From contig NZ_CP116615.1 of the NCBI RefSeq assembly GCF_024832785.1, forward strand, positions 1,612,001-1,676,000: DNA of 64,000 nucleotides, written 5' to 3'. This stretch comes from Fontisphaera persica. GTDB taxonomy: Bacteria > Verrucomicrobiota > Verrucomicrobiia > Limisphaerales > Fontisphaeraceae. Shown here piece after piece: positions 12,074 to 50,853 of the stretch. The translations under genes and the position numbers were made by a program. Below the pieces are notes generated by a model. The model saw only the letters and a program-made list of their open reading frames with translations, did not search any database and was not told the DNA's origin. How positions within the stretch are numbered: the stretch's first letter is position 1; each line of letters opens with the position of its first letter.

Positions 12074-12539
12074 ACCACTAACTTATTCTAAGGTTTTCGG
12101 ACCCCGTGCAGAATTGCACCGGGTCTGGCCCGCGTGTCGGGAATAAAGGTAACCGTTCACGTTTAAGGCTTGTTTGGACGCGCCAAAACAAAGCACGAAA
12201 AATCACTGATGTCCAGCAATCTGTTACAAAAAAGTGACGATTTTTGGGGACACGGCCTGCTGCAAACCAATAGTGGCAAGTCGGTCTGAAAACACTGCGC
12301 CCCTGCCGAGCCTTGCGGCCCGACAGGGGCGGAAGTGGGGGGTGGGAGTTCGCCACGCTCTCTTTCCCGTGCCGACATTAGGCGCCACTTGGGCTGTCGG
12401 CTTCCCGACGCTATTCTCCACGGCAAGCGGAGTTTCCGGCCTCATAGCAGGGCCGTCCTGAACCTTGCGGTCACAGGATTATTGAGTGAGGCCTCTCAGC
12501 TCGCTTGGGCTGGTGGTTGCGCCACCGGCTTGCGAACCA

Positions 12540-12579
12540 GGTCAAGACACGTCTGCGACTCCACGTCCGCGTCTTGACC
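12540..12579. repeat. Inverted repeat, 12-bp arms
   Basis: The arms GGTCAAGACACG and CGCGTCTTGACC pair with a single mismatch around a 16-base loop. It is the longest stem in the gene-free tract at 12.1-13.4 kb. No T-run follows on either strand, so it is not an ordinary intrinsic terminator. Confidence 0.6.
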
Positions 12580-13327
12580 CCTTGCGCCGGGACGGCCCCC
12601 GCTTTTGGCGGGGCGTTGGCCCGGTGCCACGGGTCTGACCTCTTACCTCTCAGGTTGCCTTTAGCTCACAGGCCAGCGGTGCGTTGTTCTTGCATCGCCG
12701 GCGTCTCGGAGGGTTTTCACGGGCTTTGCCGCAGCCCCGTGTCCCTCCCGGCATCACGGCCCTTTTTGTCCCACCTTTCGGTGTCTTTCTTGTGGCGGAT
12801 TTAATTTTTACCGCCGGAGCCTTTGACGCCGTGCTGGACGCAGTAGCAACCTCGTACCCTCTGGGTAACTGCGATTCACCGCGGCCCGAAACCAGCCTGC
12901 GGTTACTTGACTCAACTCGGGGCGGCTTCTCATCGCCCCTCGCTGCGCAGCTCCTCATTCGCGGGTTTGGCAGCGCGCGACCGCTGCCAGAGGAGCTGGT
13001 GAATTATGCCTCTTTCCACGGTCTTTTATCACCGCTTCATGAGGAACCGGACCAACCAGCCTGGCCCGATTTTTCCCCAGTCACCTGGGATTATCCTTGG
13101 CCTTCCGACACCCTCCTTGCGGGGGGCCTCTTTCGGCCGTGTTCTTTCAAGGAACTGGTTACACATTACCACGAAATCCGGTACGGACAACAAAATGATA
13201 TCCACAACTTGTCCACCGGCGGCCCTCCCACCATGGCCCCTAAAAAACGCCAAATCCTGCGTAAATTCGTGTTTTTTAATCATGGTCGCAAATTATTCAC
13301 CGCATCCGTGACTTGACGAAACAGCGT

Positions 13328-47456: not shown

Positions 47457-48557
47457 TTAGTTGGAACGCATCTCGGCCAGGGCTTCTTTCAGCGCCGCCA
47501 CACAGCGCCGATTCTCCGCAGCCGTCCCTACTGAGATGCGCAACCATTCCGGCAAACGATACCCCCCCATGGGCCGCGTAATAACGCCCCGCCGTTGCAG
47601 CGCCTCAAACATGCGCTGCCCCTCCCCCACTCGCACCAGCACGAAATTGCCGGACGAAGGCACATATTCCAGCCCCATTTTATCAAAAGCCTCGGCGTAA
47701 TAGGCCAGCCCCTGGCGGTTCACCCGCCGCGTGCGCTCGATGTGCCGGGTATCGTCGAAAGCCGCCAACGCCGCCGCCTGGGCTACGCTGTTGATGTTGA
47801 ACGGCTGGCGGATTTTCTCCAGAGCCGCGATGATTTCCGGGTGGCCCAAACCATAACCCAATCGCAGCCCCGCCAAACCGTAGATTTTGGAGAAGGTGCG
47901 CATCAACATCAGATTTTTCTGTTTGCCAGCGCGCAGGAGGGGCAGGAAATCCGCCGGGTCCTCGAGGAATTCAATGTAGGCTTCATCCAACACCACCAGT
48001 ACATGCTCCGGCGCTTCTCGCACCAGTTGTTGCAAGGCTCGATTGGAGGCCCGCGTGCCTGTGGGATTGTTGGGATTGGCAATGAAGATTACACGCGTGC
48101 GCGGCGTCACGGCCCGCAACATGGCCGCCAAATCATGGCCATAATTTTTCGCCGGTACCTCCACCACGGTGCCACCAAACATTTTGGTGATGATGGGGTA
48201 GATGGCGAAACAATACTGGCTGACCACCACCTCCACCCCGGGTTCCACCAGCGCGTGGCCTATGAACTCGATGATCTCATTGGAGCCGTTGCCCAGCAGT
48301 ATATGCCCTGGTGTCAGCCCCAGCCGAGCCGCCATTTTTTGTTTCAGGTAATAGGCATTCCCATCCGGGTAAAGATGGACCTGCCGCACCGCCTTGGCCA
48401 TGGCTCGCAAGGCCCTGGGGGATGGCCCCAGCGGGTTTTCATTGGAGGCCAGCTTGATGATGTCATCCGCCGGCAATCCCAGCTCGCGAGCCACCTCCTC
48501 GATGGGACGGCCGGGTTGATAAACCGGCAAATCCTTCAGGACCGCATTTAATTTCAT
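47457..48557 (-). CDS. hisC: Histidinol-phosphate aminotransferase
   Basis: A 366-residue fold-type I PLP enzyme. KLASNENPLGPSP near the N-terminus, FIANPNNPTGT, VVLDEAYIEF and the PLP-lysine motif RTFSKIYGLAGLRLGYG are the HisC signature. It transfers the amino group to imidazole-acetol phosphate in histidine synthesis, and many members also use aromatic substrates. The frame is open to 48854, but the ATG at 48557 gives the normal start. It follows ilvB by 26 bases, an unusual pairing that puts it under the branched-chain attenuator. Confidence 0.9.
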   Translation of the reverse strand: MKLNAVLKDLPVYQPGRPIEEVARELGLPADDIIKLASNENPLGPSPRALRAMAKAVRQVHLYPDGNAYYLKQKMAARLGLTPGHILLGNGSNEIIEFIGHALVEPGVEVVVSQYCFAIYPIITKMFGGTVVEVPAKNYGHDLAAMLRAVTPRTRVIFIANPNNPTGTRASNRALQQLVREAPEHVLVVLDEAYIEFLEDPADFLPLLRAGKQKNLMLMRTFSKIYGLAGLRLGYGLGHPEIIAALEKIRQPFNINSVAQAAALAAFDDTRHIERTRRVNRQGLAYYAEAFDKMGLEYVPSSGNFVLVRVGEGQRMFEALQRRGVITRPMGGYRLPEWLRISVGTAAENRRCVAALKEALAEMRSN

Positions 48558-48583
48558 GGCGCTTCCCTGAATTGCGGGCTGAC

Positions 48584-50464
48584 TTAGATGATCATGTCCG
48601 CGACGGTGCGGCCGGCAGGAATGAACGGCAGCACATGCTCCGTGTAAGGCACAATCACATCCAAGACATACGGTTCCTTGGAGGCCAGCATCCGCTCCAC
48701 GGCGCCCCGCAAGTCCTTGCGATACATGACCCGTTCGCACGGCACATTGAAGCCCTTGCAAATGGTCACCCAGTCCGGGTAGATCGCTTCGCGTTTTTCC
48801 GGATCCCCCAGGTAAGTATGGCCACGGTTGCCCTGGTAGAAACGATCCTCCCATTGCACCACCATGCCCAGGTGCTGGTTGTTGAGGATGATGGCCTTGG
48901 CCGGAATCTTTTCAATGTGCGCCGTGGCCAGCTCCTGCACATTCATCAGGAAAGAACCATCGCCGTCTATGTCAATCACTTCCTTATTTGGAAACGCCAC
49001 TTTGACGCCGAGGGCCGCAGGATAGCCAAAGCCCATGGCCCCCAACCCGCCGCTGGTGATAAATTGCCGCGGACGGGTGTATTTATACCATTGCCCGGCC
49101 CACATCTGATGCTGGCCCACGCCCGTGGTGATGATGGCGTCGCCACCAGTTAATTCATACAAGACTTCAATGACATGCTGCTGCAGAATCACCTCGTTTT
49201 CGTGACCCTGCAGGTGGTCCCGCATGTGGTCCGAGCGCAGCACCTCCTCGGTGATTTGATAACGGAATGGCGCCTTTTCTTTCCACCGCGCAATCTGCTG
49301 ATGCCAGGCATCAAACCGCTTCCGAATCCCCCGCCGTTTAATCATCGCCACCAACCGTGAAAGGGCCACTTTGATGTCACTTTGGATGGCCAGATGCACT
49401 TTGCGGTTTTTATTGTGCTCACTGGCATCAATATCAATATGCACAATGGTGCCATGCTCGCAGAACTTGTCGAATTTGCCGGTCACCCGGTCATCGAAGC
49501 GCGCCGCCAGCGCCAGTAACAAATCCGCCCCGGGCGCCACCGTCACCACCTGCTCGGTCCCGTCGGGACGTTTTTCTTTGCGTTGTTCCCCGTTCACCGC
49601 CCAGTTGGCAAAGGCCGCACCATGCATCCCCAGCCAGCGCAGGGACAAGGGATGCGTCTCCGGAAAACCACCAATCCCCATCAGCGTGGTGGTCACCGGT
49701 ATTTGCGTCAGCTCGGCAAACTCCAACAATTCTTTATGGGCGTCGGCAGTAATGATGCCGCCCCCGCAATAAATCACAGGCCGTTCGGCCTTTTCAATGA
49801 GGCCAATAATTTCGTTCAAGGCCACCTCGTCCGGCTCCGGCGGCGGCGGATAACCCGGCAGATTCACTTCCGTGGGCCAGACGGGTTGCGTTTTGGCCTG
49901 TTGGATATTCTTGGGGAAGTCAATCACCACCGGCCCCGGCCGCCCGGTCTGGGCAATGTGAAAGGCTTCTTTGACGATGCGTGGAATGTCAGCAATGTCC
50001 GTGATTAGGTAACTATGCTTGACGATGGGCAGGGTCATGCCAAAGACATCCGTTTCCTGAAAAGCACCCCGCCCTATCATGGCTGTAACCACCTGACCCG
50101 TGATGCAAATCAAGGGCACGCTGTCCATGTAGGCATCGGCAATGGCCGTCACCAGGTTGGTGGCCCCCGGCCCGCTGGTGGTCATGCACACGCCCGCCTT
50201 GCCCGTCGCCCGCGCATATCCGCTGGCCGCAAACGAGCCGCCCTGCTCGTGACGGGGCAGAATGGTCCGGATTTGCTTGGACCGGGTAAGCGCCTGGTGC
50301 AGCTCCATGCTCGCCCCACCGGGATAGGCAAAAATCAATTCCACCCCTTCGCGCTCCAGCGCTTCCACGAAAATTTCACTGCCTTGCATTAACCGTCCCA
50401 CCTCCGCGCGGCGGCGCGCCGGAGCCTTCTTCCGCAGGGTTGCTGCTGTCGTTTTGCTGCTCAT
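48584..50464 (-). CDS. ilvB: Acetolactate synthase large subunit
   Basis: A 626-residue thiamine-diphosphate enzyme condensing two pyruvates, or pyruvate and 2-oxobutyrate, for valine, leucine and isoleucine synthesis. The catalytic Glu lies in [26 protein letters not shown] follows, [11 protein letters not shown] is in the FAD domain, and the ThDP/Mg motif [12 protein letters not shown] with NNQHLG lies near the C-terminus. The ~25-residue N-terminal extension is basic. ATG 50464 ([10 protein letters not shown]) is preferred over the longer frame to 50491. The small subunit gene is not adjacent. Expression is probably attenuated by the leader at 50505-50632. Confidence 0.92.
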
Positions 50465-50504
50465 GTTGTGTTTTGGGTTTTGTTGGCCCAAGGTCGCGGG
50501 CTAA

Positions 50505-50536
50505 CAAAAAACCCACGACCGACTGGGCCGTGGGTT
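50505..50536 (-). terminator. Rho-independent attenuator terminator of ilvB
   Basis: On the minus strand, AACCCACG and CGTGGGTT form an 8-bp stem with further C:G pairs inside, followed immediately by TTTTTT. It lies 41 bases before the ilvB ATG and after the leader peptide stop, so transcription would stop here unless the stem is prevented from forming. Confidence 0.8.
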
Positions 50537-50571
50537 CTTGTCGAAAAGCGGTGTTCCCTAGCTTCGACAAG
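50537..50571 (-). promoter_or_regulatory. Leader stem-loop abutting the attenuator
   Basis: CTTGTCGAA and TTCGACAAG pair perfectly (9 bp). The first arm covers the last codons of the leader peptide and the second arm ends at the base next to the terminator stem. A ribosome stalled on, or released from, the leader would change its folding, as in amino-acid biosynthesis attenuators. Confidence 0.65.
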
Positions 50572-50632
50572 CGCACACGGCGCCGCCGATTACGGCGACT
50601 ACCAGCAGATGCACTTGTCCAAGCATACTCAT
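50558..50632 (-). CDS. ilv leader peptide (attenuation)
   Basis: A 24-codon frame starting MSMLGQVHLL and continuing VVAVIGGAV to a TAG. Three Leu, five Val and one Ile codons lie within residues 4-19. It is followed at once by the 50537-50571 stem-loop and the terminator, then ilvB. This is the layout of the enterobacterial ilv leaders: scarcity of charged branched-chain tRNA stalls the ribosome and favours read-through. The peptide is too short for homology; the call rests on codon content and position. A second ATG two codons in is also possible. Confidence 0.65.
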   Translation of the reverse strand: MSMLGQVHLLVVAVIGGAVCACRS

Positions 50633-50657
50633 ACCAACATCCGCAAAATACGGTTAA

Positions 50658-50853
50658 GCCATCCCCGCGTCAAGGGAAAGTTTCAGGATTTTGAAACGAT
50701 GGGCGCCTGCCTGGTCACCCGCAGTAACCTGCTCTCGCCAACAAGGTGGACGACGGCTTCCCAGCAGGCGAAGAATCAGAATGCAGGCATGAGATTTGCC
50801 ATTGCCAACGGCGGCATGCTTTTTTAGCCTTTCACGCGTTACCGGCAGGTAAC
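50658..50853. other. Structured spacer between ilv leader and gcvT
   Basis: Several nested inverted repeats are visible. CCATC pairs with GATGG enclosing GTTTCA/TGAAAC (about 50659-50702), which could make a three-way junction. CGCCTGCCTGG pairs with CCAGCAGGCG enclosing GCAG-TAAC-CTGC (about 50704-50770). GTTACC-GGCA-GGTAAC (50838-50853) lies just before the gcvT start. A T6 run at 50820-50825 could end a plus-strand terminator. I looked for a glycine riboswitch and saw no match. The strand on which it acts is undecided. Confidence 0.4.

Follow-up and report, generated by a model that had tools for sequence, protein, structure and literature searches.

The leaders of the enterobacterial ilv genes encode a short peptide rich in valine and leucine and combine a competing protector, an antiterminator and a terminator in front of an acetolactate synthase gene. 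The product of ilvB catalyses the first step in the synthesis of valine and leucine. Leader-peptide attenuation that senses amino acids has so far been known mainly from Proteobacteria, Actinobacteria and some Firmicutes, and has lately been proposed for Leptospira; Naville and Gautheret (2010) regarded such systems as previously found only in Proteobacteria and Actinobacteria and themselves added the Firmicutes (PMC2965389). The ilvB-II motif, or ilvBNC attenuator, of Corynebacterium has an upstream ORF rich in codons for branched-chain amino acids (BCAA), a terminator and an antiterminator (PMC10272879, PMC11857589), and the C. glutamicum ilvBNC mRNA has also been discussed as leaderless (PMC11857589). 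Two further RNA motifs that precede ilvB, ilvB-OMG (41 members from 'various phyla') and Leptospira ilvB, have upstream ORFs rich in BCAA and threonine codons and were interpreted as attenuators; all examples of the Leptospira motif contain at least three consecutive Val codons (PMC10272879). The attenuator RNA of Sinorhizobium meliloti trpL starts with the ATG of its leader ORF (PMC7298713). We found no description of a leader-peptide attenuator from Verrucomicrobiota in the open-access literature.

The locus described here lies in a window of 64,000 nucleotides, the whole stretch of DNA that was analysed, from the verrucomicrobial species Fontisphaera persica. The gene for the large subunit of acetolactate synthase, ilvB, occupies positions 48584-50464 on the minus strand, and its product matches TIGR00118 with 670 bits (cut-off 538). 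Its ATG at 50464 is preferred over an upstream TTG at 50491 because relatives share a start of the ATGAGC type. Directly 3' of ilvB there is a hisC-type aminotransferase gene (47457-48560, minus strand) and not ilvN. This gene probably shares the ilvB transcript, and given its position an aminotransferase of the histidine-pathway type may fall under valine control.

All parts of the element upstream of ilvB are on the minus strand as well. A predicted promoter (50645-50673; TTGACG at 50673-50668, a 17-nt spacer and TATTTT at 50650-50645) precedes a leader peptide ORF of 24 amino acids, MSMLGQVHLLVVAVIGGAVCACRS (50558-50632; ATG at 50632, stop TAG at 50560-50558), which has homologous counterparts in relatives and whose regulatory codons read Leu-Leu-Val-Val-Ala-Val-Ile. 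This ORF contains segment 1, GACAAG (50614-50619), the 5' arm of the protector according to fold and covariation; a hairpin, GTCGCCG-TAAT-CGGCGGC (about 50582-50599), which by folding is part of an extended protector; and segment 2, GCCGTGTG-CG-CTTGTCG (50565-50581), the 5' arm of the antiterminator, the last 7 nt of which double as the 3' arm of the protector. Behind the ORF lies segment 3, CGACAAG-AA-CCCACGGC (50527-50543), the 3' arm of the antiterminator; both antiterminator arms were assigned from pairing and covariation tests. It overlaps an intrinsic terminator (50506-50534), made of CCCACGGC (50534-50527), a loop, GTCGTGGG (50519-50512) and T6 (50511-50506). Segments 2 and 3 pair as one extended hairpin, the outer half of which uses the 5' arm of the terminator, while GACAAG repeats the core of segment 3 and is its rival for pairing with CTTGTC. 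This pairing scheme is the 1:2, 2:3, 3:4 logic of classical attenuators.

A first-pass annotation of this DNA had described the 24-codon frame with its BCAA run, a stem-loop overlapping the last codons and an 8-bp stem followed by T6, and we find all three where the coordinates above place them. It had read them as a ribosome-mediated attenuator and had failed to see the antiterminator by eye; that pairing has now been found and covaries along with the protector, which supports the reading.

The 181-nt region is more stable than expected from its composition (fold z = -5.4 against 200 dinucleotide shuffles, 0 of 200 being equally stable). When both strands of the 64 kb were scanned for a stable hairpin with a T-run behind a short ORF containing a run of regulatory codons, the ilvB leader and one weak candidate with a His run were returned and nothing else. 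Right behind the T-run and before ilvB (50510-50484) there is a second possible hairpin, TTGTTAGCCC...GGGCCAACAA. Elsewhere in the window, positions 12345-13096 of the minus strand hold a full-length match (586.9 bits) to MISL RNA (RF03079), a large non-coding RNA. The idea that the hairpin before ilvB terminates an upstream gene was rejected, as the upstream neighbour, gcvT, is divergent.

In our opinion, it is very likely that the element controls ilvB in cis as a ribosome-mediated transcription attenuator, sensing charged valyl-tRNA and to some extent leucine and isoleucine. We infer termination, stalling and the valine response of the ilvB leader to work as follows. Transcription would begin a few bases 5' of the leader ATG, and the resulting leaderless 5' end would be loaded with a ribosome. 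With plentiful Val-tRNA the ribosome would reach the stop codon behind CTTGTCG and cover segment 2, upon which the terminator would form and transcription would end before ilvB. With scarce Val-tRNA it would stall in the Val run and mask segment 1. Segment 2, about four codons beyond the stall, would then stay free of both the ribosome and segment 1, and could capture segment 3, including CCCACGGC, before the 3' arm of the terminator is made. With the antiterminator formed, polymerase would continue into ilvB.

Comparison with the sequences of relatives demonstrates a signature of a translated frame, a Val run, three helices, the position of the promoter and the restriction of the element to ilvB. 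The share of valine among in-frame residues is 26.7%, compared with 7.0% and 0.9% when the frame is shifted, and 27.8% in 99 leaders found without the exact terminator pattern; the frame was chosen partly by Val and Leu content, which favours this enrichment. That choice has no bearing on the third-base pattern or on the fixed position of the start. Along the run, variation among the Val codons falls on base 3 while bases 1 and 2 are kept, the most conserved codon having entropies of 0.34, 0.20 and 1.26 at its three positions. Runs of at least four BCAA codons occur in most leaders. Typical peptides are MLNNNRQVVLAVVVVVGSDAVGACRC and MFGAIRQVVLLVVVVGGDAVGSCRS, and one branch, with MSETNNVVPVLVGGPPAADGTCRNA as an example, has shorter Val runs. 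The antiterminator arm encodes a conserved leader end, A-V-G-x-C-R; segment 2 opens with a GCC about four codons past the last strongly conserved Val codon, and the stop is reached one or two codons after CTTGTCG. Judged from these sequences, the sensed residue is chiefly valine and not Leu, Val and Ile equally. This refines the first-pass annotation, which had named Leu/Val/Ile codons together.

The helices were examined in two sets of leaders. Among 73 leaders, the antiterminator is paired in 86.5% of cells (at most 59.5% when it is slid by 1-3 columns) and shows 17 both-side changes, against 5.0 in shuffles. Since many of these leaders had been chosen by the exact terminator pattern, invariance of the terminator in this set is circular, and a second structure test used 89 non-redundant leaders that blastn or a covariance model had found. 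There, the inner antiterminator is 88% paired, with 18 both-side changes against 7.2 in shuffles (0 of 1000 as high, the shuffles ignoring shared descent), and the protector is 85.4% paired, with 12 against 3.5 (again 0 of 1000, under shuffles that ignore shared descent); the terminator stem is paired in 99.7% of cells. On a smaller leader set biased by the pattern, the covariation score of protector and terminator did not rise above shuffles. The in-leader hairpin keeps at least 5 of its 6 pairs in 51 of 73 leaders.

Only the outer half of the antiterminator is mutually exclusive with the terminator. In the 89 leaders this outer helix is paired in 83.7% of cells. It is nearly invariant there, shows no covariation and is thus uninformative; of its eight pairs, one is broken in 46% of leaders and another in 66%. 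The terminator 5' arm is identical in 87 of 89 leaders, though the antiterminator often leaves two bases of the arm unpaired; this invariance is beyond what antiterminator pairing alone explains.

The first-pass annotation had proposed to look for conserved leader codons and covarying stems in relatives. Both are there: the in-frame Val runs vary synonymously at the third base, ilvB being the gene that follows in 94 of 94 loci, and the inner antiterminator and the protector both exceed 1000 of 1000 shuffles.

Folding adds less. The minimum-energy fold of leaders with a complete terminator contains the terminator in nearly all cases and in all three ribosome states, so that the switch would have to work kinetically. 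Folding of the intermediate transcript gives the antiterminator in 84 of 94 leaders with a stalled ribosome, and also in 67 of 94 without one, while 54% of shuffled upstream sequences pair comparably. Thus the ribosome states are poorly separated, and energy calculations alone are no proof of a switch. The lack of a clean separation between ribosome-free and stalled intermediates would also fit a leader that acts on translation or by reinitiation, or that only sets a fixed level of read-through, with no sensing of amino acids; similar ilvB leaders of Streptomyces were reported to be unresponsive to codon changes (PMC1262725). However, relatives keep an intrinsic terminator with its T-run between leader and gene, antiterminator and protector both covary, and the Val runs are selected in frame, and we therefore regard this explanation as improbable.

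An even smaller chance is given here to a ligand-binding riboswitch or a T-box, in which a metabolite or an uncharged tRNA would switch the terminator and the short ORF would be incidental. The location before a biosynthetic gene, the terminator with its alternative helix and the conserved sequence would all suit such an element. Yet RNA structure alone is insufficient to account for Val codons fixed at their first two bases and variable at the third, the element is only about 130 nt long and mostly ORF, and a search of Rfam, with a permissive threshold included, matched it to no family, be it T-box, ppGpp riboswitch or other. Hence we retain attenuation by a ribosome that senses valyl-tRNA.

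In 99 of 100 relatives a TTGAC-type promoter is predicted immediately 5' of the leader start, so that transcription most likely starts upstream of 50505, as the attenuator of the first-pass annotation needs. In most of 99 leaders, with start codons picked without regard to the promoter, TTGAC precedes the leader start by 35-40 nt, and the TAnnnT -10 box ends about 6-10 nt before that start, 7-9 being commonest; in the window, the gap between promoter and leader start is 12 nt. Transcription would thus be predicted to start at the leader ATG or a few bases before. A motif resembling a Shine-Dalgarno site was seen before the leader start in only 2 of the 99 leaders. Given this, and the short distance to a conserved -10 box, the leader is probably translated from leaderless mRNA.

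Using the leader as a query, blastn gave matches in the genomes of 17 of 20 relatives, most of them members of different families in the same order. A covariance model built on these 17 finds the element in 250 of 293 genomes from the order, and in 148 of the 154 near-complete ones. Downstream of the element lies ilvB in 94 of 94 fetched loci with readable downstream sequence. Six genomes negative for the element were inspected: in four the assembly has no ilvB, and the other two have the gene but no attenuator. One ilvB locus that has no attenuator keeps an upstream promoter-like site, TTGACC, a possible natural loss. The exact terminator pattern occurs at 85 loci in GTDB contigs, most of them labelled Verrucomicrobia, subdivision 3, Pedosphaera, Limisphaera or Limisphaerales; a few carry the labels Akkermansia muciniphila, Omnitrophota, Acidobacteria or Proteobacteria, and these odd labels we take to be misnaming by submitters. 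On the strength of the labels, we take the order to be Limisphaerales. The element is single-copy in every genome where the exact pattern is present. A mobile or phage element was considered and rejected on the grounds of this single copy and of the absence of the pattern from viral contigs.

When a sample of the phylum was searched with the covariance model, matches were obtained only in the genome itself and in one distant genome, so the sequence of the element belongs to the order. In the class of the distant match, about a dozen further BCAA-rich leaders were seen in ilvB upstream regions. They are apparently leaderless, with mostly 35-40 nt from promoter to start, and their terminators are mostly of the ACCCACCG type; in several of them the leader DNA (GCGGTGG, ACGGTGGG) is complementary to a terminator arm. 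By these sequence features, this second class of Verrucomicrobiota probably has analogous ilvB leader attenuators. A crude scan of the sampled other orders of the class to which Fontisphaera belongs found no such element before ilvB, so that it is not universal. One may speculate, and we consider it unlikely, that at least two classes of Verrucomicrobiota inherited a leaderless ilvB attenuator from a common ancestor, that an Ala/Thr-Val-Gly motif near the leader end encodes an antiterminator arm in both, and that a second role in trans of the released leader RNA or peptide keeps CCCACGGC almost invariant, whereas pairing by itself would allow drift.

An attenuator kept across an order that comprises dozens of families, and probably present in a second class, always before ilvB, indicates coupled transcription and translation and the sensing of ribosome position in Verrucomicrobiota. 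It also makes many natural variants available for testing leaderless initiation in attenuation.

It remains to compare the element with the known systems. The layout of the enterobacterial ilv leaders had been recognised in it from the start, and the order of parts is indeed that of the Escherichia coli and Salmonella leaders of ilvBN (ivbL) and ilvGMEDA; the likeness is one of layout, no sequence relation is claimed, and valine clearly dominates here. What does not carry over is the Shine-Dalgarno site, which in the enterobacterial leaders lies in a longer 5' UTR, whereas here the start is at the predicted 5' end of the transcript. With the ilvB-II motif and ilvBNC attenuator of Corynebacterium, the element shares a BCAA-rich ORF before ilvB, a terminator and an antiterminator; Corynebacterium is of another phylum, however, its leader, MTIIRLVVVTARRLP, shows no obvious resemblance, and the two are not joined by any Rfam model. 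The ilvB-OMG and Leptospira ilvB motifs likewise precede ilvB and have BCAA-rich upstream ORFs; the element here has no match in Rfam, and an overlap with ilvB-OMG is possible. The trpL RNA of S. meliloti starts at its leader ATG, as is predicted here, but it senses Trp and belongs to another operon, and, once released, its leader RNA and peptide work in trans. Hence, the kind of switch is known, while the lineage appears new, and the leader is probably leaderless.
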